Made by a program: the position numbers and the translations under genes
Source: Salinisphaera sp.
Lineage (GTDB): Bacteria; Pseudomonadota; Gammaproteobacteria; Nevskiales; Salinisphaeraceae
Direction: 5' to 3'
Length of the DNA stretch: 64,000 nt
Assembly: GCA_027858915.1 (NCBI GenBank)
Contig: JAQIBT010000014.1
Location: 1 to 64,000 of the forward strand
Shown: in pieces, positions 35,266 to 60,243 of the stretch
Layout of the letters: each line of letters begins with the position of its first letter
Position numbering within the stretch: the stretch's first letter is position 1
Notes under the pieces: generated by a model
Seen by the model: the letters and a program-made list of their open reading frames with translations, nothing else
Told to the model about the DNA's origin: nothing
The model's database searches: none

Positions 35266-38052
<2,787 letters not shown>

Positions 38053-40441: not shown

Positions 40442-40824
40442 AATAGCCGGTCACGGCTGTCAGCCTGAAGTTGTGGGCTGCGGATCACGACCGCGATCCG
40501 TTATCCTACCGGTTTTGTGCTGGCGGCGCTGGCCAGCCGAACGTCTCCTGAATGTCGATTTTTTCTCTCATGTCTGTCTATCGCCACGCCCATCCGATGC
40601 TGCACGTCACCGATGGGCGAGGCTCGCTTCCAGCTCATCGCTACGGATAATGGTTTGATCGACTGGATACGGCTGGCTGGATATTCGGCTCATCGCAATT
40701 GCCAGCTCTGCTGGCTTGTCGTGGCGCCGGGTGCAGTGCTGCCCACCGTCCTGCGTGCGTGGTTGCCTGGCGCCGTCTGGCCAGAGCTGCATGGCAAGGC
40801 GCAGGCCAAGCGGCAGCTGTAGAT
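40442..40824. other. Divergent intergenic region between the ABC exporter and GT4 gene
   Basis: 383 nt without a gene I can support. A rightward frame (40517-40822) ending just before the GT4 start has a Cys/Trp/Leu-rich translation without recognisable features. The region presumably contains the promoters of both flanking genes, but I see no convincing -35/-10 pair. Confidence 0.4.
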
Positions 40825-42154: not shown

Positions 42155-43168
42155 CTATCTGGCCTTGAGGTCGCGGTAGATTTGTTGAATTTCGCGCACC
42201 GGGCTCGCTGGATTCCAACGCGCCCGGGCATTCTGCGCGCGCATGTGATCAAACTCGGCGAGGAACGGGCGCAGATCGGCGACCGCCTGTTCGACCGCTG
42301 CCCAACGTGCTACGAACTCGGGCGAATCCAACGTCAGCTCGTCTGCCGCCACCTGGTCCAGAAGACTGTAACCCTCGGCCGTCCAGCGATTGGCCGACGG
42401 ATCGGTCAGCAGGTCTTCGCGGCTGAAACGCGTTCTGGGCTTGTCTTGCTTCAGGAACTGGGTCGCGTATTCATGGATGCCGGCCTGCTGGGCGTCGCCA
42501 AGCGGCAGACCCAGGCCGCGGGCCACGCGCGCCAGCTGGGCGGTCGGATGACGCATGAGGCGGTCGAAATCAACGACTACGCAGGGACGACCGACGATCA
42601 GATGAAAATACGGCACGACGTTCACCAGCCATTCCATATCCGACCAGACCTGGCGACCACGCTGCGGGTTGATCTGACCGCGCGAGCGCGCAACCGACAG
42701 CGGATTGCGCAATGCGAGGACGTAGCGCACGTCCAGATCCAAGGCCTCGTGAATAGCCCGCCAGAACGGCATCGTACGCAACGTGCGCGAATACTTGTAG
42801 CCCCATAACGGCGTATCGCGGAATCGTTGGCCGAGCGTTCTGGTCGCTTGGGCCTGAAGCCTGGTCATGTCAGACGTCGCGAATTCGCTGTCGTCCAGCA
42901 AGCGCACGCTGTGGCCGCGGATCCCGAGTGTTTGCTTGAGCCGTCTGCTGATTGCCAACACGTCCTTGTCTTCGAAGAATCCGGTGGGATTCTTTCCACC
43001 CGCCTGTCGCAGCTGGTCACCCAGGTCGACGCCGAGGGCAGCCAATCCGCGCGTCATGGCACTGGTGCCGCTCCGACCGGCCCCCAGCACCGGGATGACG
43101 ATCGAGCGATTCGGATCGGGCTGGACAATACCGACTTCGCTGCCAGGCGCCGGAACTGCTTCAGACAT
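42155..43168 (-). CDS. Sulfotransferase-family protein
   Basis: P-loop-like sulfotransferase fold, 337 residues from ATG 43168. The 5'-phosphosulfate loop is GAGRSGTSAM near the N-terminus, and a 3'-phosphate motif follows in LALRNPLSVARSRGQ, so PAPS use is plausible. The acceptor is unknown. Its start overlaps the end of the 2OG-oxygenase gene by 8 bp, so it is translationally coupled and last in the long leftward lipid operon. It converges with the GT4 gene. Some members of this fold are not sulfotransferases, so the activity needs caution. Confidence 0.78.
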   Translation of the reverse strand: MSEAVPAPGSEVGIVQPDPNRSIVIPVLGAGRSGTSAMTRGLAALGVDLGDQLRQAGGKNPTGFFEDKDVLAISRRLKQTLGIRGHSVRLLDDSEFATSDMTRLQAQATRTLGQRFRDTPLWGYKYSRTLRTMPFWRAIHEALDLDVRYVLALRNPLSVARSRGQINPQRGRQVWSDMEWLVNVVPYFHLIVGRPCVVVDFDRLMRHPTAQLARVARGLGLPLGDAQQAGIHEYATQFLKQDKPRTRFSREDLLTDPSANRWTAEGYSLLDQVAADELTLDSPEFVARWAAVEQAVADLRPFLAEFDHMRAQNARARWNPASPVREIQQIYRDLKAR

Positions 43169-43883
43169 CACGGATTTCTTCACCCTTGAGCCGGCCCTTG
43201 AATCGACGTACGGCAGCACGCAAGCGGTCGTTGATCACCACGATGAATACCTTGCGGTACATGCCTTCCGGGCAGGTGATCTCGCGTACGCCATGCCAGG
43301 ACTTGGACTGGCGCTGAAACAGCAGGCTGTAGTTGCCCATGCTGTGGCCTTGATGCGCTTGCGGAAAATCTTCGAATTCCGGTGCCGACTTCGAGCTGAA
43401 CTGGCCGTGGTCGTCGAGAATTACGGTGTCGCCACCCCAGTCGGCCTGCCAGTTGTCGGGCGAACTGAAATAGAAGATATGCGAGCCGAGTTTGCGGTGT
43501 GCATCACAGTGCGGCGATACCGAGGCGCCGCGCGGCGCATAGTGCCAATGAAAATTGAGTTTGAAAAAACCGCGGCCAAACATCCGTTTGATGAAATCGT
43601 GGTATCGGTCGCCTTGCAGTTCATCGATGAACGCCTGCCATTCGGGCGATATATCCACCCCGGGCCGATATTCGAGTGAGTAGCGGTCATGCGGTTTCTG
43701 CCCGTGTGATCGTGCGTTGCCGAACTGTGCCGTCATGCTGTCAGTCCTCGGCATGGTATCGATCAGGCGCTGGTATCCCTCCTCGGTCAACAGCTGGGCA
43801 GGGTTGACCCAGGGATAGGGTTCGGTGGCCCGAAAGCGCTTGCCATCCATCGCGTCGAGACGGGCATAGTCCAGATAGTTCAT
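43161..43883 (-). CDS. 2OG-Fe(II) oxygenase
   Basis: Non-haem iron dioxygenase of the prolyl-4-hydroxylase-like superfamily, 240 residues from ATG 43883. The iron facial triad appears as the HxD in SPHCDAH and a distal His in SWHGVREIT, with a downstream Arg for 2-oxoglutarate. The substrate is unknown; in this operon a lipid or sugar hydroxylation is conceivable. It starts 10 nt after the ELM1 gene and overlaps the sulfotransferase gene. Confidence 0.82.
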   Translation of the reverse strand: MNYLDYARLDAMDGKRFRATEPYPWVNPAQLLTEEGYQRLIDTMPRTDSMTAQFGNARSHGQKPHDRYSLEYRPGVDISPEWQAFIDELQGDRYHDFIKRMFGRGFFKLNFHWHYAPRGASVSPHCDAHRKLGSHIFYFSSPDNWQADWGGDTVILDDHGQFSSKSAPEFEDFPQAHQGHSMGNYSLLFQRQSKSWHGVREITCPEGMYRKVFIVVINDRLRAAVRRFKGRLKGEEIRDV

Positions 43884-43893
43884 AGCGTTCAAC

Positions 43894-44970
43894 TCAAGTC
43901 TCGTAGAGTGAAACAGATCGCGACTCGGTCTTGAAGTCACTCTTCATCAACGACCGGATACGGGCAACCGTGGCGGCCATGTCATCCGGCGGCGTCAACG
44001 GCGCGTCACAGTCGATCAGGCCGTGATTTCGCAGGCACTCATGAAAGGCAGAAAAATCACGCCGCGGTTTGTGCCAGCCGCTATAGATTAATCGACGCTG
44101 GATCGCCTGGGCGACTCCCGGCCAAAGACGCGGCGGTTTTCTCGGCGCCCATTGAAACAGATCAACGGGCCGACCGGTAGCACAGGCCTCGGCGGGAAGC
44201 GATGCGCTATCGGCGGTCACCAGAAACCGGTCGGCCAGCGCGAGAAACGCAGGATAGGGATTCTCACCGATGGCCGGCGTCCATCGGTGAAAATAATGCG
44301 GCTCGGCCAGGCCGGCGGCCAGCACGTCTGCCGCCGCTGTCGACGTACGCTTGCTGGTCGTAACGAGCAGGCTGCCACCGGTAGTGCGCGCCATGGCATT
44401 CGCGCGCTCGACGAGGGTCCGCGCCTTCGCGGCGTCGAACACGTAGCTAGAGCTGTCACCGCCGACCAGAACGCCAATCCATGGGCGCGGCAGCTGCGCC
44501 CATCGTGGCGCCCATCGTTCCGCGGCGGCTTGCCGCTCGGCTGCGGGAATTACGTTTAACGGTAGGGTATTGCGCAGCACGTTCGAAGCCGCTGGCACCC
44601 TGAACTGCGCCAGCGTCACCACGAGGTCGAAATGATGCAGCGGCATCTGCGTATGCAACAGATGTACCAGCCGCGTATGGCCGCCCGATTGGCGCTTGAT
44701 CCAGCGCGCGATCGGCGCTGAGCGGCGTGAAGCCGCAATCACCAGATCGGGCCACGGTGGCGCCAAGGTATCCGCCTGCCGGTCGAGCGTGAATGCATGC
44801 GCGCCAATCAACGGATTTGGCAGATAGTTCAAACTGTTCCACGACAGCTGTCGGGTTTCGTAAGGCCAGCCCAGCGCGTCTGCCAGAGCACGCATCTGGG
44901 CGTTCCCACCGGCTCCCTCGCCCAGCAGCACCCATACCGTGGGTGCTGCAAGCAACGACGGATCAGCCAT
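43894..44970 (-). CDS. ELM1-family (DUF1022) predicted glycosyltransferase
   Basis: 358 residues from ATG 44970. It matches the mitochondrial-fission ELM1 family of bacteria, a GT-B-like fold: WVLLGEGAGGNAQMRAL at the N-terminus, PWPDLVIAASRRSAPIARW, VLVGGDSSSYVF and the late VTADSASLPAEACATGRPV. In bacteria these genes lie among envelope-lipid or LPS genes and no reaction is firmly established. Its start overlaps the preceding fusion gene by 8 bp, and it resembles that gene's C-terminal half, so the two likely arose by duplication. Confidence 0.8.
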   Translation of the reverse strand: MADPSLLAAPTVWVLLGEGAGGNAQMRALADALGWPYETRQLSWNSLNYLPNPLIGAHAFTLDRQADTLAPPWPDLVIAASRRSAPIARWIKRQSGGHTRLVHLLHTQMPLHHFDLVVTLAQFRVPAASNVLRNTLPLNVIPAAERQAAAERWAPRWAQLPRPWIGVLVGGDSSSYVFDAAKARTLVERANAMARTTGGSLLVTTSKRTSTAAADVLAAGLAEPHYFHRWTPAIGENPYPAFLALADRFLVTADSASLPAEACATGRPVDLFQWAPRKPPRLWPGVAQAIQRRLIYSGWHKPRRDFSAFHECLRNHGLIDCDAPLTPPDDMAATVARIRSLMKSDFKTESRSVSLYET

Positions 44971-47407
44971 GGGCAGACCGCGGCCCGCTGCTGGCGCGCG
45001 CGCGTGGCCGTCCTTGCGTGCCAGCGATGGGCAGCATGGCGCGAATACGCTGGGCAACCCAATCGGTTTCGTGCCACACCGGCGGCGTCCAGCGTTCCAG
45101 ACGGCCGTTGAATATCCGGGCCACGCCCTGATCGATCAGCGCATCGTGCAGAGCCGGCATGTTCCGGCGTGGCACGAACACCCGTTTTTGCACCAGACGG
45201 GCACAGATATATTGTAATCCTTCCTGGGGTCGCCGCGAGCCGCGCGCGTTGAAACGGTCCGTGCCGGCCTGACGCACGACCCAATCCGCCAGTCGCCGAC
45301 GAGCGTCGGGCGCCCGCTCAGCCAACGGCAGAATATAGACAGGCTTACCGGTGGCGACCGCCTCAGCCAGCATGGATTCGCTTTCTCCCGTCACCACCAG
45401 CACGTCGGCGCTGGCCAGATAACCCAGATAAGGGTTGGCTTCGCCGGCCTGCGAATTCCAGCCCTCGAACAACGCCTGGCTGCCGGCAGCTTCCCGGATC
45501 GCCGCGGCCGCATCGGCCGGCGTACGCCGGCTGGTCAATACGGCCAACTCCCCTTTCTCATCCTCGACCGCTTGGCGCACGTCGGCGGCCATGCGCCAAG
45601 CCGCGTCTGCCGTCAGCACGTGCTGCGGGGTGTGGCCGCCAACCAGCATCACCACGCGCAGCTTGCCTTCATCGCCGTACAGCTCGGTCCAGCGTCGACG
45701 TGCCGCGGCCAGCTGCTTTTCTGCCACCTTGCTCGGTGGCAAGGTGGTGCTGAGCTCACGCGGGTTCGGGGGCAGATCGAAGTGACGACACACCAGGCCG
45801 ATATTCTGGGTTTCGTCGACTCGCCCACCGCGACGGCCCATCAGAACAAGCCGCGTGTTGGCGTGGTTGCGTGCCGCAACGGCCCGTGCAATAACCGATG
45901 GCAGCCAGCCTGAGGCAACCACCACATCTGGCCACGGCGGATTGATGCCACCCGGCCAGCGGGCGCGACCCAGACCTATCTGGTCGCGCAGGAACGCCAG
46001 GCCGTGCGCCTTGCGATCACGCACGATATCGCGGGTCTCGAACGGCCAGCCCAGCGCTTCGGCCACGCCCAGCGCCTGTGACCGGTGACCTGTCTTGTAG
46101 TGCAGCAGTGTCCAGACGGTTGGGTTGGCGGACAACAACGCCCCGCCCGACCATCGCCAGACACGATGACGGTGGGCAAACCGGGGCTGGAGCACAATCA
46201 ACCGCCAGTGACGATTCGGATAACGCGCACCGGCAGCCACCAGTTGGCTGTACCACCACAGTTCGTCAGCCGGGGTCGCGCGATTGCTGCCATCGTTCAG
46301 GGTGATCGCCACCAGCAGCGCACGTTGCGCCCGTTCGAACAGGCTGTCGAGTATCCATGGGATATCCAGATCGGGCAGCTCGGCAAGGCCAGCGGCCAGG
46401 ACCACCTCGGCTGTCTGCCCCGGTACACCGTTGGCCAGCGCCTCGGGTACCAGAGTGGCGATGGTTTTCTGGTCGAGGCTCGGCGCGCTGGCGAGTTGGG
46501 TAATCGCCTGCGGATCGTCATAACCGCAATAGATCAGCGAGGCCGCACGAGCATCGTCGACCAACCGGCGAAAATCTGCCATATGAGCCGGGAGCGGCTT
46601 CTCAACGGGCTGCCGCAGCGGGCGCGCAGCAAATGCCGGGCTGGTATGTCCGGGGCCGAAAAGCTGGAAACCTGCCGCGTCCGCTTCACGCTCGATCGTC
46701 AACCAGATATCGGCCGCCGGATTGGCCCGGTAGATGTAATCCTGCGGCGTGGGCCGCCAGGGCTGGGAATGAATCGTCGTGTAATGCACGACTCGCGACT
46801 CACCGGGCACATACTCGGCGTCGCGCGCGTTCCACGCGCCGTCGATAGCCGCCCACAGATGGGCGTTGCGCATCTGTTTCTCGAGCTCGCGATTGCCTGT
46901 GCCGCGTGCGGTGCGGCCATTCCAGAGGCCGATCATCTTCTCGCAGTCGATCAGCATGACCGAGGTATCGCGGTCGTTGATCGACAAGACACCCGCATCG
47001 CCCATATCCGCGTCGAACAGATCGGCCGGATCGTGCAGATAGATCTGATCGGCGTCGTTGTAAATGGCACGTCCCCGACCGCCGGCCAGTTCGGGTATTG
47101 CAAACCGGTAATTGGTAAAGCCGGTTAACCACAGGCGTCGTTCGTAGCCAACGAAATCACGCATGAGATAGATTTCGTACTGGCGCGCCGGATCTCGTAC
47201 ACGCTCAACCGACCAGACGAAGGCCCGCTCGGCACGGAACTGGACTGCCTCAGTACCCAGATAAATGCGTACCGGGGTCTTATCGCTGGGTGGCATACCG
47301 GGTTTTGGCGGCAGGGTCAGACAGAGCGGACGCGTATGGGTCGATTCCGCATGTCGCAGATCGCCGGCCAGAAATGTCTCAATCACCCGCTTGGTTCTAA
47401 TTGCCAT
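44963..47407 (-). CDS. Multidomain fusion: GT-A-like glycosyltransferase plus ELM1 domain
   Basis: 814 residues. Residues about 1-270 resemble a GT8-like GT-A transferase (IYLGTEAVQFRAERAFVWS and the DxD-type NDADQIYLHD near 116-125). Residues about 280-440 are unclear, with a segment recalling a degenerate methyltransferase. Residues about 450-790 are an ELM1/DUF1022 domain (WTLLHYKTGHRSQALGVAEALGW, VVMLVGGHTPQHV, VVTGESESMLAEAVATGKPV). The start has an AGGTAG site. It probably adds sugars to an envelope lipid. It is flanked by an LpxL-family gene and a separate ELM1 gene on the same strand. Confidence 0.75.
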   Translation of the reverse strand: MAIRTKRVIETFLAGDLRHAESTHTRPLCLTLPPKPGMPPSDKTPVRIYLGTEAVQFRAERAFVWSVERVRDPARQYEIYLMRDFVGYERRLWLTGFTNYRFAIPELAGGRGRAIYNDADQIYLHDPADLFDADMGDAGVLSINDRDTSVMLIDCEKMIGLWNGRTARGTGNRELEKQMRNAHLWAAIDGAWNARDAEYVPGESRVVHYTTIHSQPWRPTPQDYIYRANPAADIWLTIEREADAAGFQLFGPGHTSPAFAARPLRQPVEKPLPAHMADFRRLVDDARAASLIYCGYDDPQAITQLASAPSLDQKTIATLVPEALANGVPGQTAEVVLAAGLAELPDLDIPWILDSLFERAQRALLVAITLNDGSNRATPADELWWYSQLVAAGARYPNRHWRLIVLQPRFAHRHRVWRWSGGALLSANPTVWTLLHYKTGHRSQALGVAEALGWPFETRDIVRDRKAHGLAFLRDQIGLGRARWPGGINPPWPDVVVASGWLPSVIARAVAARNHANTRLVLMGRRGGRVDETQNIGLVCRHFDLPPNPRELSTTLPPSKVAEKQLAAARRRWTELYGDEGKLRVVMLVGGHTPQHVLTADAAWRMAADVRQAVEDEKGELAVLTSRRTPADAAAAIREAAGSQALFEGWNSQAGEANPYLGYLASADVLVVTGESESMLAEAVATGKPVYILPLAERAPDARRRLADWVVRQAGTDRFNARGSRRPQEGLQYICARLVQKRVFVPRRNMPALHDALIDQGVARIFNGRLERWTPPVWHETDWVAQRIRAMLPIAGTQGRPRARASSGPRSAHG

Positions 47408-47452
47408 GCACTCTACCTCGATCGTACCTGCTCGCCGTGATGTTAGGCGGCA

Positions 47453-48391
47453 TCATGCATTGTGCTCGTGCACCGCCTTGGGCCAACGTCGCTTCATGCA
47501 AAGCCACTGATCCGGATGGCGCGCGATTTCGGTTTCCAGCAGCGCGTTGATCTGGCGACTCATATCCAGCACTTTTTCGTCGCGGCTGGCCTCCGGCTGT
47601 CTCGGCTGGACGGGCGGATGAATATTCACCCGAAATCGGCCGCCGGGCAGGCGCTCGGCCAACACCGGCACCAGGTCGCATTCGAAGCGCAGCGCCAAAC
47701 GCGCCGGTGCCGTGTTAGTCGACGCTGGATGGCCGAAGAACGGCACCGCATCGCCGCCGTCCATACGCGTATCGACAGTGAGACCGATCGATTCGCCGCG
47801 CATCAACGACCGCATGAACATACGCATGCCGCCGTCACGCGAGACCAATGGGTTGGCAAATGTTGCGCGCAGGCGATAGAGCGCACGGTCGATGTAGGGA
47901 TTCTGTTCGGGCGCGTAGATCACAGGGAGCGTCACGTCGTAGTAACGACCGATCAGGGGCGTCAGGGTCCATGCGCCGGTGTGCGCTGAGACAAAGATGC
48001 TCGGCCGGTCGCTCTGCGGGCGTTTCGCGCCTGGCAAGACATTGAACTCCAGCCGTTTTCCGCGCTGCCGCCAGATACGGTCGAGATTGGCCATCTCGGC
48101 TGTTGTGACACCGACATTGGCCAGAGACGCCCGGGTCATATCCTCGAGCCGGTCGCTGCGCGCATCCGGCAGCACGATGCGCAGGTTGTGCCGGACCTTC
48201 TCCACGCGCGGCGACAGACGCCCCAGGCTCCGGCCAATGAACGCACTCAGGCTCAGCGCAGTCTCCAGCGGCAGAATGCGAAGCAGACCCATTACGCTCT
48301 TGAGAACCGCGGCTTCCAACCACCAGATCAGCTTTCGCCGCCGGGCGGTCACTTCGTGACTGCGGCGGCCCGAGAAGTAGAATCGCGGCAT
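47453..48391 (-). CDS. LpxL/HtrB-family lipid acyltransferase
   Basis: 312 residues from ATG 48391. Late lipid A acyltransferases transfer acyl chains from acyl-ACP to lipid A at the inner membrane. Family features are an N-terminal hydrophobic helix region, EQNPYIDRALYRLR and VDTRMDGGDAVPFFG. The usual catalytic HLGNWE motif reads HTGAWT here: the histidine is kept, but the acidic residue five positions on is threonine. So the enzyme may act on a different acceptor, use another base or be non-catalytic. It lies in the sphingolipid operon, not beside lipid A genes. Confidence 0.82.
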   Translation of the reverse strand: MPRFYFSGRRSHEVTARRRKLIWWLEAAVLKSVMGLLRILPLETALSLSAFIGRSLGRLSPRVEKVRHNLRIVLPDARSDRLEDMTRASLANVGVTTAEMANLDRIWRQRGKRLEFNVLPGAKRPQSDRPSIFVSAHTGAWTLTPLIGRYYDVTLPVIYAPEQNPYIDRALYRLRATFANPLVSRDGGMRMFMRSLMRGESIGLTVDTRMDGGDAVPFFGHPASTNTAPARLALRFECDLVPVLAERLPGGRFRVNIHPPVQPRQPEASRDEKVLDMSRQINALLETEIARHPDQWLCMKRRWPKAVHEHNA

Positions 48392-48422
48392 GCTTATGTC
48401 CTCGTCGACCGCTCGCGTTTCA

Positions 48423-49184
48423 CTAGCTGGCAGCGGCGCGGTAGCGCGCCTCCCACGCCCGCTGATTAGCCAGCGCGTCACGAAAGTATGCGGTGCGCCG
48501 AAGTGCAGCGATCATGGCGCGCGATACCATGCGACCGGGCATGCCCATCGGCCGCTCGATATCGAACAGGAGCACAGCACGCTCGCCGTCGGTCTCGTTC
48601 CAGACCTCGTGCTTGTAAGTATCGTCGAAGAAAAACATGCCGCCGTCTTTCCATTCGCAGTCGACATCGTCAACCTGAATCAGGCAACGGCCCGGACCTT
48701 TCGGCACGCGCAGGCCGATATGGCAACGCACCAGACCCTTGGTTACGCCACGATGCCTCGGGATATGCTTGCCCGGCCCAAGAATCGAAAAGAAGGCGTT
48801 GGACAGATGCGGCACTTTTTCAAGTGCAGCGGCGGTTTGTGGACACATTTCGCAACCAAAATCGAGCCGCGTCCCGAACGCGTACAGCATAAACGTCTTC
48901 CACTTGTCGTCGGTGGAAATACGTGATTGATCCGGGCTGATCTCCTGGAAACTCGGCAAGGCATCGCGACGCTCGAGGAGCGCTTCGAGCTCGTCGCGAA
49001 TCACTGGCCACTGGGCTCGTAGCTCCTCGGCCCAGGGAAAGTGGCGATTCTCGATCACCGGTTCGTCCGGCACCTTCGATTGCCGCGACAGGAATTCCAT
49101 CAACGTGCCGCGAAACAGCTTCTTGCCGAATCGCTTGACGATTCGGCGTCGCTTGCTGTCGAGATTCGACGAATGGGTAGCCAT
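48423..49184 (-). CDS. Aspartyl/asparaginyl beta-hydroxylase-family dioxygenase (LpxO-like)
   Basis: 253 residues from ATG 49184. The jelly-roll Fe(II)/2-oxoglutarate domain shows RHRGVTKGLVRCHIGLRVP with an iron His and KHEVWNETDGERAVLLFDIERP (abridged) with the second His and Arg. LpxO, the best known bacterial relative, 2-hydroxylates a lipid A acyl chain; a C-terminal RMVSRAM-like tail is also LpxO-like. In this operon a 2-hydroxy-acyl group of a sphingolipid is an alternative product. It is 31 nt upstream of the LpxL-family gene. Confidence 0.8.
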   Translation of the reverse strand: MATHSSNLDSKRRRIVKRFGKKLFRGTLMEFLSRQSKVPDEPVIENRHFPWAEELRAQWPVIRDELEALLERRDALPSFQEISPDQSRISTDDKWKTFMLYAFGTRLDFGCEMCPQTAAALEKVPHLSNAFFSILGPGKHIPRHRGVTKGLVRCHIGLRVPKGPGRCLIQVDDVDCEWKDGGMFFFDDTYKHEVWNETDGERAVLLFDIERPMGMPGRMVSRAMIAALRRTAYFRDALANQRAWEARYRAAAS

Positions 49185-49238
49185 ACAGTGCCTCGTTTTA
49201 GTCCGCCTGCCGTGCGGCAAGGAAGTCCATAATATCGG

Positions 49239-51240: not shown

Positions 51241-52447
51241 TTAGTTCAGGGTTTGCTCCATGGCTCGCGTCAGATCGTCCATGGTCTGGACGTCCGGCAG
51301 CGAATTCATGGGAATCGAGCTGTCCAACCGATCCTCGAGTTCCATCAGCACTTCCATGATCTGAACCGAGTCCAGCCCCATGTCGTCCACGAGCCTGGTC
51401 TGTGGCTTGATCTCGACCCCGCTCGGGGCGTAGGGCCCGAGCAATTCTTGCAAATGGCCGTAAATTTCGTCGTAGCGAGTGGTCATGTGCCTCTGCTTCC
51501 TGGTCGTTCGATATGTCCGGCAACAAGGCGCCAGCCGCCCAGTCGCAGGTCAGGCCGAGCCCGATCGTAAAATCCACGACTGGCTGCCAGTCGGGCAACA
51601 CTGACTGCAAGCTTCGATTATCTGCCACCCAGTCCGTATGCCATATTTCACGTACTTTGCCGGGCGTCAACATCGGCTGGTGGCCCAGCGCACGGCTGAC
51701 CTTGCTGTTGATCGCAGCTGCCCAGCCGACGCCACGCCGTGATAGCGCCAGCCGACGCACCGGTCTGCCGCGCAATGCCGTCGCAATGTCGATGATATCG
51801 CGCCAGGCATAACCGCCCGTTCGACCGTCGTGGATTTCATGCACACCGCCCTGTTCACGGGCGCCAGATACCCAGGCGACCACGGCCGAGGCGAGATCAC
51901 TGACGTGAATCAGAGACAGACGCGCGTGATTGGAAGGGACCGGCGCCAGACCGCGGCCGAACGCCTCGAACAACGGGGCCAGTTCACGATCGCCAGCGCC
52001 GTAGACAGCCGGCGGACGAAGCACCAGCGCAGGCACGCGAATCGACTCCAACAGACATTCCATGGCGCGTTTGGACAGGGCGTAGTCAGACAGCCTGGGC
52101 TCGCGTGCCGCCAGCGACGACAGCGCCACGACCGGCACGGCTGCCTGCTCGGCAGCGTCAAACAGCTGAGCGCTGCCCAGCACGTTGACGGCTTCAAAGG
52201 TAGCGTAGTCGGCACCGCGCACAGCACCGGCGCAATGGATGACCGCCGAGCTATCGCGAACCAGACGCATCAGCGCTCCGGTATCGCTGAGGTCGCCGAC
52301 AACCACCTCGCCGCCGAGCGCACGAATAGTCTCAGCGGCAGCGGGCGAGCGCGCCAAGGCCCGCACGGCCCAGCCGGCGTCCACTAATTGGCGCAACACC
52401 TCACGCCCTATAAACCCGGAGCCTCCGGTCAGTGCGACAGCCGGCAT
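50009..52447 (-). CDS. One open frame encoding a ceramide-reductase-like epimerase joined to serine palmitoyltransferase
   Basis: From ATG 52447 (8 nt before the upstream stop) the frame is open for 812 codons. Residues 1-about 315 are an NAD-dependent epimerase-type protein; about 403-812 are a PLP-dependent serine palmitoyltransferase. Residues about 321-402 are an Arg/Asp/Gly-rich stretch with no similarity, which is the acp gene read in the wrong phase. There is no stop at the natural epimerase end. No in-frame ATG, GTG or TTG exists from the acp start until a TTG at 51130, inside the SPT domain. A ribosome starting at 52447 must therefore make a fusion unless it shifts frame. Sequence error is the main alternative. 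Confidence 0.75.
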   Translation of the reverse strand: MPAVALTGGSGFIGREVLRQLVDAGWAVRALARSPAAAETIRALGGEVVVGDLSDTGALMRLVRDSSAVIHCAGAVRGADYATFEAVNVLGSAQLFDAAEQAAVPVVALSSLAAREPRLSDYALSKRAMECLLESIRVPALVLRPPAVYGAGDRELAPLFEAFGRGLAPVPSNHARLSLIHVSDLASAVVAWVSGAREQGGVHEIHDGRTGGYAWRDIIDIATALRGRPVRRLALSRRGVGWAAAINSKVSRALGHQPMLTPGKVREIWHTDWVADNRSLQSVLPDWQPVVDFTIGLGLTCDWAAGALLPDISNDQEAEAHDHSLRRNLRPFARIARALRPERGRDQATDQARGRHGAGLGSDHGSADGTRGSVGQLDSHEFAAGRPDHGRSDASHGANPELTQNTLADAKLDSAPGLFDKFAPIARIRADLATTGVDPLGVPVDRILSASEAIVRGKHTILAGSNNYLGLTFDPDCVEAAVTAVREQGTGTTGSRMANGSYDGHLALEAELAAFYGVEQAMVFSTGYQANLGMLSALAGPRDTVMLDADCHASIYDGVKLGGAATLRFRHNDPADLDKRLRRLGDRAAQTLVVVEGIYSMLGDEAPLAELVAVVKKHGAYIFVDEAHSMGIVGQYGRGVVETAGVINDVDFIVGTFSKSLGAAGGFCVSRHPELDMVRYASRPYIFTASPVPSVIASTRAALKRLHDDGGLRTRIWDNAHRLHAGLAELGLTLGARPGPVVAAMFESRDVALLFWQGLLDRGVYVNLMLPPATPNGQCLVRASLSAAHTPAQIDHIIDAFAAISRETLVAG
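51241..51486 (-). CDS. acpR: Acyl carrier protein dedicated to sphingolipid synthesis (AcpR-like)
   Basis: 81-residue acyl carrier protein. The phosphopantetheine site is S40 in MGLDSVQIMEVL, in an acidic four-helix context. The ATG has AGGAAGCAGAGG just upstream. In Caulobacter, AcpR accepts the acyl chain from AasR and hands it to SPT. The gene lies wholly inside the open frame joining cerR and spt but in a different phase, so both frames encode over this stretch as sequenced. Its ATGA start looks like a typical stop-start overlap, except that the TGA is not in the upstream cerR phase. Confidence 0.9.
   Translation of the reverse strand: MTTRYDEIYGHLQELLGPYAPSGVEIKPQTRLVDDMGLDSVQIMEVLMELEDRLDSSIPMNSLPDVQTMDDLTRAMEQTLN
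51490..52447 (-). other. Epimerase segment of the joint frame: ceramide reductase-like (CerR)
   Basis: Extended SDR of the NAD-dependent epimerase type. The nucleotide-binding loop is TGGSGFIG at residues 6-13. The catalytic-type YALSKRAME follows DxSSLAARE, and the C-terminus (DFTIGLGLTCDWAAG) is where homologues stop. In Caulobacter, CerR of this family reduces the keto group of 3-ketoceramide and is encoded between acpR and aasR, exactly as here. The end coordinate is an estimate because there is no stop codon. Confidence 0.75.
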
Positions 52448-52454
52448 TCGCGAA

Positions 52455-54248
52455 TCACCCAGCCTGTCGATCTTTAGCGGCTGAATCACTCCGCGCGGCT
52501 TGCTGGGCCGACCCACCTCGGGCCCGTGCCCGCTCGGCCAGCCGATCGATATAATCCCGGCGCGCGCCAGCACGCGACAGCTTACCCGACGAGGTACGCG
52601 GCAGCGTGTGCGGAGCCACCGCCTCGACCAGACATTCCACGCTGAACTCGCGACGCACCAGTCCTTCCAACCGTTTGATCAGCGCCTCGCGCGCCGCGGG
52701 CTCGCGCACCCGGCACTGAATGACCAGAACCGCTGCATCTTGCCCCGTACTGGAGGGCGCCGCGAAGGCCAGCGCGTCGCCGGGGCGCAATTCAGGCTGC
52801 GACTCGGCCAGCCACTCGAGATCCTGGGGCCAGATATTACGGCCGTTGACAATGATCAGATCCTTGGCGCGCCCGGTAATCACGATTCGGCGCCCCAGCC
52901 GATAGCCGAGATCGCCAGTGTTTAGCCAGCCATCGTCACTCAGAACACGCGCCGTTTCCTCAGGGCATTGGAAGTAACCAGACATCACGCTCGGCCCGCG
53001 CACGAAGACAGCGCCGACCGCGCGATCAGCCAGCGACCGGCCAGTGGCGTCACGGATCTCGAAGTCATATTCCGGCAGCACATCGCCGCAGTCGACGAAT
53101 TGGCCGCGCGGATCATCGTTCGCCGCGACCTGAGCCGCGCGCTGATCATCGGCCAACGTATCCGGGTCGATATGATCGATCTCCAGACCACGGTCGAGCG
53201 GTGCAAAACTGATCGCCAGCGAACATTCCGCCATACCGTAGCAGGCCACGAATGCACGGCGATCGAAACGGGCAGGCGCCAACGTGTCGGCAAAACGATC
53301 CAGCGAGTCTGGACGAATAGTCTCCGCGCCGGCGCCAGCGATACGCCAGCTCGACAGATCGAAATCATCAGCGTTGTGCCGGATACGGCGAGCGCACAGC
53401 TCATAGCCAAAAGAAGGACTGAAGGATATCGTGCCACGGTTGCGGCTGATCAGTGCCAGCCATTGACGCGGACGCATGGCAAAATCGCGGGTCGCGAGAT
53501 AATCAACCGAGCGCTGCGACGTCAGAGCGGCAAGCATGAAACCGACCAGACCCATGTCATGGTAGAGCGGCAACCACGATACCAGGCGGTCGTCAGGCCG
53601 CATCTGTACGCCCAGCTTCAGAATACTGGTCAGGTTCTGCATCACCTGAGCCTGAGAGATCACCACGCCGCGTGGGAACTGGGTACTGCCTGAGGTGTAC
53701 TGAAGATAAGCAGTGCTCCGGACATCCTGATCGGGAAAGCCCTGATCGCTCGGCGCCAATGCCTGGACCTCTTCATAGCTTCCCAGCCATGTCAATTCCA
53801 CCGTATCGGCGGCTTGCTCGGCGGCCTGGGTCAGAAACGGCATGAAGTCCTCGGGCGCGATAGCGACTGATGCATCGCAGCCTCGAAGCAGGCCGCCCAA
53901 CTGACGGATATAAGCGTCGCGACTGCCCAGTCCAACCGTGACGGGCAGCGGCACAGGCACGAGTCCTGCGTACTGGCAGGCAAAGAAGCAGGCCATGAAG
54001 CCGGGCACCGTATCGGCTACCAGCGCAACACGCGCTCCGTCTTCCAGACCCAGACCAATCAAGCGTTTCGCGGTTGATTGCGCCTGATCGCGAAGTGCTG
54101 CATAGCTCAGCGCACAGCTGAGATGGCCTCGACCGTCATGGAAGTTGAAGCCGGTTTCACCGCCGGCAGCGTAATCCAGCGCATCAGCCAGCGTCGCGAA
54201 GTCCGCATGACGCATTGGCAGCCCGTGTTCGGTCGGCGTCGGCATCAT
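52455..54248 (-). CDS. aasR: Fatty acyl-AMP ligase / acyl-ACP synthetase (AasR-like)
   Basis: Adenylate-forming enzyme of the FAAL/acyl-CoA ligase class, 597 residues from ATG 54248 (AGGTAA site). Motifs: [46 protein letters not shown] and [10 protein letters not shown]. In Caulobacter the equivalent protein loads fatty acid onto AcpR for SPT. The cerR start lies 8 nt after its stop. It heads the leftward lipid operon. An alternative substrate is CoA rather than ACP, but the adjoining acp argues for ACP. Confidence 0.88.
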
Positions 54249-54682
54249 TATTGGGTTACCTGTGTCGAGTGGGCCTATGTTCACGACACCCTGCCGGGCG
54301 CGCCACCGAAGCCATTGCGAGGTGCGCCGGCCGGTCGCGTCGGCCGCCATTCGCGCCTATTCACGTGCCCAACAAAAACGCCGCCAAGCAGCGTTTAGCG
54401 GCATGAAACGTTTTTTTCGCCCGGCATGTACGTATCATCAATCGTGAAAGTTTACTGCAAAGTGCGCCGACTTGCACGAATGACGGAATGCCCAACTGGC
54501 GAAACTTGCAAGCGTACCAAGGCTTGAGCCGGTTGCCGAAAGACTCTATCGTCGCTGCGCGGCAAAATCGTCCTTCGCTACAACCGTTCATCCGATCCGT
54601 GGTTAAAAACCTGTTCACGTGCTTGTGACTGTATCGCAACGTGAGCCTGCCGAAACTCACTGGTAACCGAGAGTAAATCGCC
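54249..54682. other. Divergent control region of the two sphingolipid operons
   Basis: 434 nt between the leftward aasR operon and the rightward bcerS-like operon, with no gene I can support. It should hold both operons' promoters. TTGCAG about 17 nt before TGATAC on the minus strand is a weak candidate. A terminator-like hairpin lies at 54374-54395 between this candidate and aasR. Confidence 0.45.
54374..54395 (-). terminator. Terminator-like hairpin in the leader of the aasR operon
   Basis: On the minus strand AACGCTGC, loop TTG, GCGGCGTT form an 8-bp stem with one G-U pair, followed by TTT. It lies about 125 nt upstream of aasR, downstream of where the operon's promoter should be, so it could be an attenuator. 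No leader peptide or ligand-binding fold is evident. Confidence 0.4.
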
Positions 54683-55828
54683 ATGACCGAGTCCTCGCCT
54701 GCGTCTCTGCGCATTTCACGAGTTTCTGGCAAAAAAGACCTCAGGCGTTTCATCAACCTGCCCGGCGCACTCTACGCAGATCGCAAGGAGTGGCGAGCCC
54801 CACTGTATCTGGAAAGACGGATACACCTGTCGGAAAAACACAATCCGGCGTTCAAGCATCTCGATTGGCAGGCATGGATCGCCTGGCAGGGCAGTCGCCC
54901 TGTGGGCCGGATCACCGCTCAGATCGATTCTCTCCGAGCCGAACAACACGACGATAATGTAGGTTACTTCGGCATGCTTGAAGCGCCGGATGACCCCCAG
55001 GTGTTCGAACTGCTGCTGACGACCGCCGAGAACTGGCTGCGTGAGCGCGGCATGTCAGCGGTCCACGGGCCTTTCAACCTTACGATCAACGACGAATGCG
55101 GCCTACTCATTGACGGCTTCGACACCCCGCCGATGATGATGATGGGGCACGCCCAAGCGTATTATAAGCATCACCTTGAAGCATTGGGCTATGCCAAGGC
55201 GGTCGACATGTTGGCCTACTGGATCGACCTGGCCTTTGCGCATCCGCGCCCCATGCGCCGGCTGCTGGATCGCTACGGCTCGCGCATCCGTGTCCGGCCG
55301 ATTGAACGCAAAGGCTACACTGAGGAATTGGACCTGCTGCGGGATATCTTCAACGATGCCTGGGCTAATAACTGGGGGTTTGTCCCGTTCACCCAGGACG
55401 AGTTCCGCGACATGGGGAGTACCCTCAAATTTCTAATCGCCGACGATCTTGTCCAGATCGCTGAGGTCGACGGCAAAGCGGCCGCATTCATTGTCGGACT
55501 GCCGAATCTCAACGAAGCCGCTCGCGATCTCAACGGCCGATTGCTGCCCACCGGCGTGTTCAAACTGCTCTGGCGTCTGAAGATCGCCTTCCCAGACACC
55601 TCGCGCGTTCCGCTGATGGGCGTACGACAGGCGTTTCAGCGAGGACCGATGGGCGCAGCACTTGCCTTTACTGTCATTGCTGCCATGCAAACCAGTCTTT
55701 ACAACCACGGCGCGCGCGGCTGCGAGCTGTCCTGGATCCTCGAAGACAACAAGGGCATGCGCGACATTATCGAATCCCTGGGCGGCGAACGCTACAAGAC
55801 TTACCGTGTGTTTCAGAAAGCCCTGTGA
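54683..55828 (+). CDS. bcerS: GNAT-family bacterial ceramide synthase-like protein (bCerS)
   Basis: 381-residue GNAT-fold acyltransferase of the type that N-acylates the sphingoid base in Caulobacter (CCNA_01212/CC_1154). Features: an N-terminal FINLPGALYADRKEWRAPL segment, a middle GRITAQID acetyl-CoA-domain strand, GPFNLTINDECGLLIDGFD, a central MMMMGHAQAYYKHHLEALGY, and a C-terminal second GNAT-like half with ELSWILEDNKGMRDIIESLGG (abridged). The family is annotated widely as hypothetical GNAT; the operon context supports ceramide synthase. It starts the rightward operon and overlaps the next gene as GTGA. Confidence 0.82.
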   Translation: MTESSPASLRISRVSGKKDLRRFINLPGALYADRKEWRAPLYLERRIHLSEKHNPAFKHLDWQAWIAWQGSRPVGRITAQIDSLRAEQHDDNVGYFGMLEAPDDPQVFELLLTTAENWLRERGMSAVHGPFNLTINDECGLLIDGFDTPPMMMMGHAQAYYKHHLEALGYAKAVDMLAYWIDLAFAHPRPMRRLLDRYGSRIRVRPIERKGYTEELDLLRDIFNDAWANNWGFVPFTQDEFRDMGSTLKFLIADDLVQIAEVDGKAAAFIVGLPNLNEAARDLNGRLLPTGVFKLLWRLKIAFPDTSRVPLMGVRQAFQRGPMGAALAFTVIAAMQTSLYNHGARGCELSWILEDNKGMRDIIESLGGERYKTYRVFQKAL

Positions 55829-56619
55829 ATGGAATCGGTTACACGGCCTTGGTGCTGGCAGGTGACCGCGGTCCCGCTGATGCCGTAGCACGGCATGTCG
55901 GCGCGCCTTGCAAGGCATTGAGCCCGGTTAACGGCGTCATGCTGATCGAGCGTGTTCTCGATACGCTCTCACGCTGCCCGGACATCACGTCAATCCAGGT
56001 GGTCGGGCCACAACAGCGACTGCTCGATACACAGCCCCGACTGGCGCAACTGCTGCAACGATACGGCGCAAGCTGGACGCCACCGCAGGCCTCACCGAGT
56101 CGCAGCGCCGCAGCCGCGCTGGCCCACCTGCCGGCTACACAACCGATCCTGCTGACCACAGCCGATCATGCCCTGCTGACACCCAGCATGGTGGCTCAGA
56201 TGTGCCGAGCGCCCGCGAACACGGACCTCGGTGTCGGCATGGTTCGCCATACCGACGTAATGAGCGCTTATCCACAGACTCGACGCACCGCAATACGCCT
56301 AGGACGGGATGGTGGCTACTGCGGCTGCAATCTGTTTGCGTTGTATCGCGCTTCCGCGCGCGAACTGGTGACGCACTGGCAACAGGTGGAAACCCGGCGC
56401 AAACATCCTGCCCGCGTGATTGCCGGCTTGCTGGGCTGGGGCGGCATCTTTCGCTATGGCCTTGGACGTCTGTCGCTGACCGCTGCGTTCGACCGCTTGT
56501 CGCGGCGCACCGGCATCCGGGTTCGCCCGATCATGCTGATCGAACCCGAGGCTGCGATCGATGTCGATTCTGTGGACGACCTGATCGAAGTCGAGCGTAT
56601 TCTGGCCAGTCGCACCTAA
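55825..56619 (+). CDS. MobA-like nucleotidyltransferase
   Basis: 264-residue protein of the MobA-like NTP-transferase (GT-A-like) class. It starts ALVLAGDRGPADAVARHVG with CKALSPVNG (a K/R-containing NTP-binding loop), then LLTTADHALLTP with the D-H metal motif and a C-terminal AAIDVDSVDDL tail typical of these enzymes. It is neither cofactor-type MobA nor IspD by context. Three genes next to Caulobacter spt (cpgA-C) are needed for ceramide phosphoglycerate and I believe one is of this type. The GTG start overlaps the bcerS-like stop. Confidence 0.75.
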   Translation: MNGIGYTALVLAGDRGPADAVARHVGAPCKALSPVNGVMLIERVLDTLSRCPDITSIQVVGPQQRLLDTQPRLAQLLQRYGASWTPPQASPSRSAAAALAHLPATQPILLTTADHALLTPSMVAQMCRAPANTDLGVGMVRHTDVMSAYPQTRRTAIRLGRDGGYCGCNLFALYRASARELVTHWQQVETRRKHPARVIAGLLGWGGIFRYGLGRLSLTAAFDRLSRRTGIRVRPIMLIEPEAAIDVDSVDDLIEVERILASRT

Positions 56620-56847
56620 CTATGCCCCCCGGCCCGCGGTCCAGGGCCCATGAGCCGGCCAGGCCTACCCTCGGCAATCGATGGGGCCCGTTGCCCCACC
56701 CTGCGACATAGGCGGGGATACCAGCCCGATCGCCACAGTATCCGTTTGTGCGACAAAGCGCCCAATAGATGCGCTCTCGCCCGCACAGTTACTGCGTCAA
56801 CATGTCATAAGCTAGAATAGGGGTTTGCCAAGGCCCGGCCAGACTTG
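56620..56847. other. Intergenic gap before the lipid kinase gene
   Basis: 228 nt. TAGAAT (56813-56818) with TTACTG (56789-56794) 18 nt upstream is a weak rightward promoter candidate close to the kinase ATG. Otherwise nothing recognised; the GC-rich stretch around 56630-56700 may fold into a hairpin. Confidence 0.35.
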
Positions 56848-57825
56848 ATGAATCGCCCCGATCGCTCCGTAACGCCGCGCCGGCTTGGCATTATCTACAA
56901 CAGTCAAAGTGGTCGTCATCGCCGTCGCTGGGGGCGCCACCCGCTGCCGACGGGCGTCCCCGCAGTCGAGGCCAATACGCCGGCCGAGATCGAGATAGCG
57001 GTGGCGACCATGGCCAAACAGGGCATCGATCTGCTGGCCGTCGCTGGCGGCGATGGCACCGTGCAATGCGTGCTGACCCATCTGCTGCTCGGCGAGCAGT
57101 TCGACAAGACACCGATTCTGGCATTGGTCCCGACCGGCAGCACGAACATGACCGGCCATGACGTCGGCCACGTGCAGGTACGACGACGTGGCTGGGACGC
57201 GCTGTGCACATGGGCCGCGCATCCGGAAACGACCACAGGCCGCGTGCAGTCGCGTGCGGTTCTGCGTATTCAAGCCGGCGACCGCGGCACGCCGTTCTGC
57301 GGCATGTTCTTCGGGGCGGGCGCCATTCACCATGCGGTGCAGTACACGCAAAAGCAATTACACAGCGTCGGCCTGCGCGGCGAGATAGGCCCCGGCTTTG
57401 CGTTTCTGCGCTTCCTCAAGGCGGTCGCTACCGGCGATCGACGCGACTTCGCACCGACCCATCTGCGACTGACTGACGATGCCGACCGCCACATAGAACA
57501 AGATACGCTGCTGGTGGCAGTCAGTACGCTGCATCGCCTTGTGCTGCATTTTCATCCGTTCTGGGGCCGCGAATCGGCGCCGATCGCCTGGACCACGGTC
57601 GCGGACGATGCCCGACATTTCCTGCTGCGACTGCCACTGGTCGCCCGTGGCCTGCAGCGCGCGGGAGTGAACAGCGGCAACGGTTATGTCAGCCATAGAA
57701 GTCAGGCGCTGACGCTAGATTTCGACGGCGGATTCATCGTAGACGGTGAATTCTTCGAAGCGCGCCGCAGCGATGGTCCGATTCGGCTGAGGATCGCTGG
57801 CCACGTCGACTTTCTGAGCCTCTGA
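56848..57825 (+). CDS. DAGK-catalytic-domain lipid kinase (ceramide kinase-like)
   Basis: 325 residues from ATG 56848. It has the diacylglycerol/sphingosine kinase catalytic signature AGGDGTVQCVLTH and ALVPTGSTNMTGHDVG, then the beta-sandwich C-terminal domain (FGAGAIHHAV, DFDGGFIVDGEFFE). Known relatives phosphorylate diacylglycerol, sphingosine or ceramide; Caulobacter CpgB is a ceramide kinase of this class. The adjoining sphingolipid genes favour ceramide. It is 3 nt upstream of the Tam41-like gene. Confidence 0.83.
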   Translation: MNRPDRSVTPRRLGIIYNSQSGRHRRRWGRHPLPTGVPAVEANTPAEIEIAVATMAKQGIDLLAVAGGDGTVQCVLTHLLLGEQFDKTPILALVPTGSTNMTGHDVGHVQVRRRGWDALCTWAAHPETTTGRVQSRAVLRIQAGDRGTPFCGMFFGAGAIHHAVQYTQKQLHSVGLRGEIGPGFAFLRFLKAVATGDRRDFAPTHLRLTDDADRHIEQDTLLVAVSTLHRLVLHFHPFWGRESAPIAWTTVADDARHFLLRLPLVARGLQRAGVNSGNGYVSHRSQALTLDFDGGFIVDGEFFEARRSDGPIRLRIAGHVDFLSL

Positions 57826-57828
57826 CGC

Positions 57829-58773
57829 ATGGCTAGCGACATCCATACCACGCTGCGTGCAATCGCAGGCCCCTGCGAGAGCGATCAAGCCAACGCATTG
57901 GCGCCGCTGATCGATCAGATAACCGCGCTTTATAGCGATTCTTTGCAGGGCATCATCTACTACGGCTCGTGTCTGCGCAGCGGCAACCCTTATGAGGGCC
58001 TGGTCGACTTCTATGTCGTTGTAGACAGCTATCGGCGCGCCCACGCGCACTGGCTGGCAGCCACCGCCAACGCACTCATCCCGCCCAACGTCTATTACCT
58101 CGAAGCCGAGGGCGCCAGAGGCCAACTCCGCTGCAAGTATGCAGTGATCAATGAACCGGGCCTGGTTTGCGGGGTAAGAACAAATTTCCTCAGCGCCCTG
58201 TGGGGACGACTGGCGCAACCGGTCGCTATTGTGCATGCGGCCAATGACGATGCGCGCCAGCGTCTGCAGACCTGTTGCGGCCAAGCGGTCGTAACACTGC
58301 TGAACCGCAGCTTGCCCGCATTGCGGCCGCCAGCCAGCGCGGCCGAAACCTATGCTCGCGCACTCGCCCTGAGTTATAGCGGCGAGCTGCGTACCGAGCA
58401 CAGCAGCCGCAGCGGCGAGGTGGTGGCACAGAATGCCGGCGAATATGCCCGTCGGGTCCACGCCGCCATTCCTGTCCTATCGTTTAGCGTTCACGTCGGC
58501 AGCGATGGCCAAGTGGCGTGGCAACCGAGCGCTGCGCAGAAACATCGCGCACAGCGGGCATGGCGGTTGATGCGTCCAGCGGGCCGGGCCCTGTCGATTG
58601 CACGGTTGAGCAAGGCCTGTTTCACCTTTGGCGACGCGGTTGATTACGGCGCGTGGAAAATCGAACGCCACACCGGCATTCACGTGGAAGTCACGCCCAG
58701 ATTGCGCAAGCACCCCCTGATTTTTGGCTGGCCGGTACTCTGGCGTCTATATCGTGCCGGCACATTACGCTAA
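57829..58773 (+). CDS. Tam41-like nucleotidyltransferase
   Basis: 314-residue cytoplasmic protein. The segment IIYYGSCLRSGNPYEGLVDFYVVVD (abridged), with GS and a D-x-hydrophobic pattern, looks like the pol-beta-type nucleotidyltransferase active site, and the neighbouring HWLAATANALIPPNVYYLE resembles Tam41, the mitochondrial CDP-diacylglycerol synthase. That resemblance is by eye. In this operon CTP-dependent activation of a phosphorylated lipid is a reasonable guess. It ends the rightward operon and converges with rppH. Confidence 0.7.
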   Translation: MASDIHTTLRAIAGPCESDQANALAPLIDQITALYSDSLQGIIYYGSCLRSGNPYEGLVDFYVVVDSYRRAHAHWLAATANALIPPNVYYLEAEGARGQLRCKYAVINEPGLVCGVRTNFLSALWGRLAQPVAIVHAANDDARQRLQTCCGQAVVTLLNRSLPALRPPASAAETYARALALSYSGELRTEHSSRSGEVVAQNAGEYARRVHAAIPVLSFSVHVGSDGQVAWQPSAAQKHRAQRAWRLMRPAGRALSIARLSKACFTFGDAVDYGAWKIERHTGIHVEVTPRLRKHPLIFGWPVLWRLYRAGTLR

Positions 58774-60217: not shown

Positions 60218-60243
60218 AGCGCCGACACGACCCGGGATCAGCT

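Follow-up and report, generated by a model that had tools for sequence, protein, structure and literature searches.

A putative chromosomal island for making and decorating a sphingolipid in Salinisphaera, with acpR nested in a shared CerR-Spt reading frame

Bacterial ceramide synthesis has been described before, and the system that most resembles the one considered here is the CC_1168-CC_1152 region of Caulobacter crescentus (PMC11324152). Our subject is a pair of divergent operons at positions 42155-58773 of a 64,000-nucleotide stretch of a Salinisphaera genome, which combine ceramide genes with lipid-tailoring genes (the whole stretch is referred to as the window; the source genome is 4.3 Mb and 99.6% complete). 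The two systems share the order aasR-cerR-acpR-spt, a bCerS-type GNAT gene followed by a CC_1153-like gene, and a CpgB/CpgC-like pair. In Salinisphaera, however, cerR and spt are fused with a nested acpR, CpgA is not in the locus and no close CpgD is in the genome, and the second LptF/G pair was found only in G003 and G004 among the genomes of the genus. Extra genes were found for a short-chain dehydrogenase/reductase (SDR), LpxO- and LpxL-like proteins, a GT8/ELM1 protein, a further ELM1 protein, an oxygenase and a sulfotransferase. We consider it probable (roughly 70%) that the locus is an island in the chromosome which serves to make and decorate a sphingolipid of the outer membrane, including a CerR-Spt fusion with a separately translated acpR. 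What is new beside known ceramide synthesis is this fusion with its nested carrier gene and the long decorating operon.

Single components of the locus can be compared to other described systems. The Rhodobacterial AcpR/AasR route, which leads through acyl carrier protein (ACP) thioesters to 3-oxosphinganine, likewise has a dedicated ACP and a ligase next to spt, and its Spt prefers acyl-AcpR; there acpR precedes a free-standing spt, whereas here it overlaps the cerR-spt fusion (PMC9386255). KdoT of Acinetobacter is an ELM1-like CMP-Kdo transferase in which the second arginine of an SRRT motif matters (PMC12856342; biochemistry also in PMC10936431). By family and motif description it is alike in belonging to the ELM1 Pfam family and in having S[RK]RT with the second arginine, but it is encoded in a lipooligosaccharide core locus, whereas Salinisphaera has two copies that are linked to spt, one of them fused to a GT8-type domain. 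The Tam41 CDP-diacylglycerol synthases (PDB 7ecd and 6ig4) are the best Foldseek matches of a predicted fold from the rightward operon; they differ in sequence (about 13% identity, TM-score about 0.5), and the presumed substrate here is ceramide-1-phosphate. The OlsC/LpxO acyl 2-hydroxylases share an Asp_Arg_Hydrox domain with a protein of the leftward operon that scores well below their equivalog cut-offs and is linked to spt.

The genes of the leftward operon are listed in their order of transcription, followed by those of the rightward operon, with spacings measured on the longest open reading frames (ORFs).

52455-54350, minus strand: aasR, fatty acyl-AMP/ACP ligase (AMP-binding 182 bits; PRK09192 789 bits, cut-off 600)
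50009-52447, minus strand: CerR-linker-Spt single open frame of 854 codons, comprising a Rossmann reductase, a linker of about 100 residues and a serine palmitoyltransferase (likely start ATG at 52447)
51241-51486, minus strand: acpR, specialised acyl carrier protein, nested in the CerR-Spt linker in another frame (PP-binding 35 bits; GLDS attachment site)
49239-50012, minus strand: SDR (adh_short 168 bits)
48423-49220, minus strand: LpxO/OlsC-like acyl-chain 2-hydroxylase candidate (Asp_Arg_Hydrox 170 bits)
47453-48481, minus strand: LpxL-like acyltransferase-family protein, acid of HX4[DE] replaced by T (Lip_A_acyltrans 142 bits)
44963-47407, minus strand: GT8-type and ELM1-type fused glycosyltransferase (C-terminal Mito_fiss_Elm1 180 bits; N-terminal model resembles GT8-type PDB enzymes)
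43894-45057, minus strand: ELM1-family glycosyltransferase, ELM1b (Mito_fiss_Elm1 202 bits; SKRT; in the sphingolipid-locus ELM1 group)
43161-43940, minus strand: 2-oxoglutarate/Fe(II) oxygenase (2OG-FeII_Oxy_3 27.6 bits, cut-off 27)
42155-43219, minus strand: PAPS-type sulfotransferase (Sulfotransfer_3 23.9 bits, below the cut-off of 27; GAGRSGTS)
54683-55828, plus strand: bCerS-type GNAT ceramide synthase (without a Pfam model match; 44% to the Phenylobacterium protein in the place of CC_1154)
55825-56619, plus strand: CC_1153-like nucleotidyltransferase, MobA/CofC-like (NTP_transf_3 58 bits; CofC weak, 20 bits; 39% to the Phenylobacterium CC_1153-like protein)
56845-57825, plus strand: CpgB-like ceramide kinase, DAGK family (DAGK_cat 41 bits; Phenylobacterium homolog between CpgC- and CpgA-like genes)
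57829-58773, plus strand: CpgC-like Tam41-fold nucleotidyltransferase (Tam41_Mmp37 22 bits, below the cut-off of 24; AlphaFold model pLDDT 92)

All junctions within the leftward operon are overlaps or gaps of at most 45 nucleotides (nt), with aasR and the cerR ATG 7 nt apart, and those of the rightward operon are a 4-nt overlap, a 225-nt gap and a 3-nt gap. A first-pass annotation of this stretch had named ceramide and tailoring genes, and Pfam, NCBIfam and PDB scores place the expected families where it put them. Family and synteny assignments likewise bear out its Caulobacter-like gene order with a bCerS-like GNAT, and the close packing that it described for the leftward operon agrees with the measured spacings. 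The two divergent operons stand, with the correction that its rightward gene list was incomplete and that ceramide-kinase-like, CpgC/Tam41-like and CC_1153/CofC-like genes are also present. Its cerR, acpR and spt are all there in the order given, yet they form one cerR-spt frame with a nested acpR and not three tandem genes.

We found that the Spt domain scores 618 bits against the serine palmitoyltransferase model NF047599 (cut-off 500), compared to 309 bits for KBL (cut-off 460) and 309 bits for BioF (cut-off 426). Its nearest PDB chains carry the name serine palmitoyltransferase (best 2x8u, 445 bits; best KBL 1fc4, 240 bits), and by these profile and PDB scores it falls with the bacterial serine palmitoyltransferases and not with KBL/BioF, as the annotation had proposed. 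Genes for aasR, cerR, acpR, spt and the GNAT all occur together, which is the gene set that marks the Rhodobacterial ceramide cluster. The serine for phosphopantetheine attachment is present in AcpR (GLDS in 8 and GLSS in 2 of 10 orthologs), and the Phenylobacterium counterpart of the GNAT (44%) sits between LptF/G-type and CC_1153-like genes. The SDR was considered as a recognised 3-ketosphinganine reductase and rejected, since the 60 PDB chains among its matches listed are generic SDRs by name. By eye, an ORF resembling an Sfp-type phosphopantetheinyl transferase, which could activate AcpR, was noted adjoining the sphingolipid genes of another locus (L054, 12061-12729, minus strand), and an ORF with fatty acid hydroxylase-like histidine boxes was noted next to the CC_1153-like gene of Solimonas marina (L164, 20564-21142, minus strand).

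The CerR and Spt domains share one ORF without an intervening stop, and acpR lies entirely between them in a different reading frame. This arrangement was found in six of the eight spt-bearing Salinisphaera genomes (the window genome G000 as well as G001, G005, G007, G009 and G013). The non-fused family relatives (G003, G004 and, from a sister genus, G014 and G016) have a cerR stop codon and an spt ATG, the latter placed two codons before a conserved hydrophobic-F-[DE]-K-F stretch. A scan of 110 stretches gave 106 with a strong spt match, of which 80 have cerR just upstream; only the six Salinisphaera genomes are fused (seven loci, one a duplicate), and the fusion was not found in the 99 other loci scanned; at least four pairs among the 106 are single records listed twice under different ids. 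On the CerR (SH-aLRT 97), Spt (96) and AasR (83) trees the fused genomes cluster together, and it is most likely that the fusion happened once and was kept. Purine-rich, Shine-Dalgarno-like stretches were seen by eye within about 15 nt upstream of acpR. The fused ORF starts 3-7 nt after aasR with a Rossmann motif at its very N-terminus, so that no export signal is visible. Among the titles listed from the open-licence PMC literature we found no published Salinisphaera sphingolipid, CerR-Spt fusion or such cluster.

An spt-type match well above the BioF/KBL background, as judged from the score table, was detected in 23 of 61 genomes searched, comprising 10 of the same family (window included) and 13 of another family of the same order. 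All 15 genes were found in the same order and orientation in 9/9 same-family relatives with spt, which argues that the cluster is not a chance arrangement and upholds the annotation's claim that ceramide genes are physically joined to lipid-decorating genes. The cerR match of G004 falls into two pieces (L045, 9856-10808), possibly through a frameshift or an assembly fault. Within 20-kb stretches, the 11 of 13 other-family spt loci that were fetched all have ceramide genes, and a kinase-like or Tam41-like gene occurs in 9 of the 11. No LpxL-like, SDR, oxygenase or sulfotransferase genes were seen in these 11 stretches, and an LpxO-like gene was present in one and an ELM1/GT8-type gene in two.

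Among the Salinisphaera genomes, spt was detected in 8 of 14 and not in the other six. Five of the spt-less sites were read, and in four of them lpxC lies directly next to secA (G002, G006, G008 and G011; L207, L208, L209 and L210); the fifth, at a contig end of the 81% complete G010, shows lpxC next to the right arm of the cluster. In seven spt-bearing relatives lpxC adjoins the cluster (G001, G003, G004, G005, G007, G009 and G013), and in the window secA is on its left (35266-38082), with lpxC on another contig. Since lpxC and secA are adjacent in genomes that lack it, the cluster is an island at that junction, and natural controls are offered by Salinisphaera that have or lack the island at this site. 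It was also noted that the LpxO-like and oxygenase proteins of G003 (L044) are 88% identical to those encoded at 42155-49220 of the window, compared to 53% for cerR, and that the two ELM1 genes place G003 differently on the tree; by these sequence comparisons the cluster looks mosaic.

Conserved motifs characterize the tailoring proteins. Across 10/10 orthologs, the P-loop-like GAGRSGTS of the sulfotransferase and the HCD plus a later H of the oxygenase are invariant, the GT8-ELM1 protein has SRRT and DxD, ELM1b has S[RK]RT (SKRT in the window), and the second arginine is kept in each ELM1 protein. The LpxO/OlsC-like protein is under both equivalog cut-offs (OlsC 226 bits, cut-off 450; LpxO 124 bits, cut-off 500). 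The model of the GT8-type domain is moderate (mean pLDDT 68, with low confidence at residues 1-20, 211-230 and 261-340), and in the PDB it matches GT8-type enzymes, among them GlyE, 3tzt and LgtC.

The distribution of ELM1 genes was assessed more widely. The Pfam family occurs in 80 of 369 genomes of the class, and spt in 24 of 369 at an E-value of 1e-100 or better (21 over the cut-off). A short-ended ELM1 match (profile start at most 2 and end at most 278, a rule set after looking at the data) was found in 12/24 spt genomes compared to 1/345 others. On a tree of 89 rows (84 different), 62 sphingolipid-linked rows are separated from 27 others by a branch with support 100/100, the sampling not being neutral in that the 62 were found with window queries and the 27 were among the best Pfam hits; for loci L085, L086 and L091, spt is encoded in the genome but not within the stretch. 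These sequence data suggest that the ELM1 glycosyltransferases belong to a single group that goes with sphingolipid genes in both Pseudomonadota and Nitrospirota. Two Nitrospirota-titled loci (L126 and L131) have spt followed by a GT8-ELM1 fusion, and the arrangement may therefore cross phyla. A census of 80 named spt loci, Salinisphaera included and many of them cut by contig ends, gave ELM1 genes in 17, LpxO-like in 7, ABC in 21, oxygenase in 3, sulfotransferase in 2, LpxL-like in 1 and SDR in 1, the ABC and SDR genes being counted at 150 bits or more. An ELM1-type sphingolipid cluster was also observed on a contig titled Klebsiella pneumoniae (L179, a metagenome-assembled genome), probably a misnamed bin.

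For the headgroup genes, equivalence to Caulobacter was judged through a Phenylobacterium contig (L191) as a proxy and not through Caulobacter sequences. On this contig, Tam41-like, DAGK-like and CDP-alcohol-transferase genes are placed as CC_1161, CC_1160 and CC_1159, and two LptF/G-type genes, a GNAT and a nucleotidyltransferase (NTP) gene as CC_1156-CC_1153, the Caulobacter gene roles being taken from PMC11324152. By this comparison, CpgB- and CpgC-like genes of the ceramide phosphoglycerate (CPG/CPG2) pathway are present in the window. In PMC12275187, CC_1160 (CpgB) is described as a ceramide kinase and CpgD as producing CDP-glycerate. The five best PDB matches of the Tam41-like protein model (pLDDT 92) are all Tam41 CDP-diacylglycerol synthases (Foldseek E 5e-8, probability 1.00, TM-score 0.55), and this predicted fold supports the NDP-ceramide step suggested in PMC11324152. 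A CpgA-like gene was not found in 10/10 family stretches (locus only; the whole genome was not searched); 25 stretches other than the one that supplied the query have it. The CpgD query was an L054 ORF picked by eye for its resemblance to COG1213, and it gave only a weak match of 64 residues in the window genome; control genomes gave 53-74% in three cases and a weak match in a fourth (G139). Homologs of CpgD at 33-35%, near full length and located elsewhere, were found in G001, G003, G005, G009 and G013. Because CpgA is missing from the locus and no close CpgD is in the genome, CPG2 as such is unlikely.

In G003 (L044, 3115-5207) and G004 (G004:C40:15273-17365), and not in the window genome, the CofC-like and kinase genes of the cluster have a second LptF/LptG pair between them. 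A second Lpt set was rejected as the transport route here, as the family has four copies in G003 and G004 and two in the other 12 genomes of the genus, including that of the window.

The pathway that we infer, with its enzyme activities, compartment, step order and final lipid structure, builds on features obtained by computation, namely gene content, order and conservation, the fused frame with nested acpR, the ELM1 grouping, and one confident and one moderate fold. AasR would load a fatty acid onto the dedicated carrier AcpR, whose gene is probably translated independently, starting at an ATG of its own within the sequence that encodes the linker. The Spt domain would condense acyl-AcpR with serine to 3-ketosphinganine, the CerR domain of the same polypeptide would reduce the ketone, and the GNAT would attach the amide-linked acyl chain; the sequence is compatible with reduction either before or after N-acylation. 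As Spt needs acyl-AcpR, CerR fused to it should be cytoplasmic. The CpgB-like kinase may then phosphorylate the ceramide, and the CpgC-like Tam41-fold enzyme probably activates the product as CDP-ceramide, leading to a phospho-headgroup. Further decoration would comprise hydroxylation of an acyl chain by the LpxO/OlsC-like enzyme, perhaps a further acyl chain from the LpxL-like protein, sugars from the GT8 and two ELM1-type enzymes (the ELM1 donors being possibly Kdo-like), and hydroxylation and sulfate addition by the oxygenase/sulfotransferase end of the leftward operon.

Alternative explanations were weighed for both halves of this proposal. CerR and Spt might be made as two proteins, with Spt starting at a non-canonical codon coupled to acpR and the open linker as a by-product of high G+C content. 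The codon aligned with the old spt start is CTG in two of the six fused genomes (G007 and G005), which would suit such a start; however, it is GTA in G001, G009 and G013 and CCC in G000, neither of which is a known start codon, and no in-frame ATG, GTG or TTG lies between the acpR start and Spt in any of the six. The chance of an open linker frame given the AcpR protein, estimated from synonymous reshuffles that followed the codon usage of spt in the respective genome, was 0.016 in G000, 0.002 in G007, 0.011 in G005, 0.032 in G001, 0.129 in G009 and 0.116 in G013. Single values thus reach 0.13, in favour of the by-product, and the six are not independent because the genomes are related. Five other spt loci lack a start codon in the 25 codons that precede the match, but no other scanned locus combines loss of the local start with a frame open to cerR. 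Several observations do weigh against a translated, cytoplasmic fusion. The spt frame of the non-fused G004 is also open back past acpR, with cerR in another frame, so that an open linker frame can arise without fusion. Synonymous divergence of acpR is 0.35 compared to 0.48-0.52 in its neighbours in fused genomes, but the one non-fused pair shows the same dip (0.26 compared to 0.41-0.49, over only 23 sites), which therefore adds no support for a translated linker. The short AcpR tree did not recover the fused group as one (2 changes, weak support). Caulobacter CerR is reported as periplasmic in PMC11087976, so the absence of a visible signal alone proves nothing. On balance, we regard separate CerR and Spt proteins as quite improbable and retain the single CerR-Spt polypeptide.

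The tailoring half (LpxO-, LpxL- and KdoT-like proteins and the sulfotransferase) might, for its part, modify lipid A or the core oligosaccharide and merely share a locus next to lpxC. In its favour, the families are named after enzymes of lipid A, the substrate of KdoT is Kdo2-lipid IVA (PMC12856342), and lpxC lies beside the cluster in the seven relatives named above. Nonetheless, the LpxL-like and ELM1 genes of the cluster occur in 8/8 genus genomes with detected spt and in 0/6 without (G010, 81% complete and with part of the cluster, being among the six), whereas 14/14 have lpxC and, elsewhere than in the cluster, one strong LpxL-type gene. As the tailoring genes track spt and the separate genes are found everywhere, a sphingolipid is favoured as the substrate. 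The separation of sphingolipid-locus ELM1 proteins from the 27 others of the class points the same way, as do the LpxO-like genes near spt in the census, where one of the seven loci is that of Salinisphaera. Lipid A as the target is thus unlikely in our view, and loss of lipid A was ruled out by the presence of lpxC throughout the genus. Some results do count against a fully active decorating operon. In Pfam, neither the sulfotransferase nor the Tam41 score reaches its cut-off, and the annotation's LpxL-family acyltransferase, which has the Lip_A_acyltrans domain and keeps its histidine, lacks the usual acidic residue in Salinisphaera. The catalytic motif of LpxL/LpxM late acyltransferases is HX4(D/E); it reads HX4T in the window, HX4Q in the other seven cluster-bearing Salinisphaera and HX4E in 2/2 sister-genus genomes. 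Other-family genomes with spt have homologs at 33-40% next to ELM1 genes (L089 in G186 and L091 in G263), and these homologs, with the motif in view, have HX4Q and HX4E, respectively. With Q or T in 8/8 Salinisphaera, the extra acylation is the weakest step. Such an altered motif, together with the CpgB- and CpgC-like genes, would also fit a locus whose sole product is, as in Caulobacter, a ceramide phosphoglycerate-like lipid, with the extra operon in decay. That we judge very improbable, given that the 15 genes are kept in order in all nine spt-bearing relatives (with cerR split in G004) and that the CpgA-like gene is not found in the family stretches and is found in the 25 others.

Beyond the decorated sphingolipid that we favour, a more specific reading is put forward tentatively, as one that may well prove wrong. 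One Salinisphaera clade would use a single cytoplasmic CerR-Spt with its carrier encoded in the linker, and the product would be a lipid-A-like acylated, ulosonate-glycosylated and sulfated sphingolipid, a second lipopolysaccharide-like molecule beside true lipid A, dressed by an spt-linked ELM1 family of at least Pseudomonadota and Nitrospirota. Whether ceramide reduction in bacteria precedes or follows N-acylation is disputed between two groups; reduction first is favoured by one of them, as set out in PMC11087976, where Caulobacter CerR is placed in the periplasm, which leaves its electron source unexplained. A natural fusion of CerR to Spt speaks for reduction in the cytoplasm, in this case at least, and provides a one-protein system for testing, while a carrier-protein gene lying within the linker of a fusion is an uncommon way for genes to overlap. 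The ELM1 group offers a testable function for proteins still labelled 'mitochondrial fission' and suggests that lipid-A-type dressing of sphingolipids extends beyond Salinisphaera.

Two genes to the left of the cluster were also examined.

38693-40441, minus strand: ABC exporter, candidate sphingolipid flippase and possible left extension of the cluster (Pfam ABC_tran and ABC_membrane)
40699-42057, plus strand: GT4 glycosyltransferase, possible cluster member (Pfam Glycos_transf_1)

The ABC transporter may extend the cluster leftward, and the GT4 gene perhaps does so. Similar ABC genes are those counted in 21 of the 80 named spt loci, and the gene lies between the sulfotransferase gene and secA in G007 and beside secA in G003; the position of the GT4 gene varies among relatives. 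Beyond the other end of the cluster, at 59540-61161 of the window, two histidinol-phosphatase-type genes of unrelated families (HAD and inositol-phosphatase) were noted close together.

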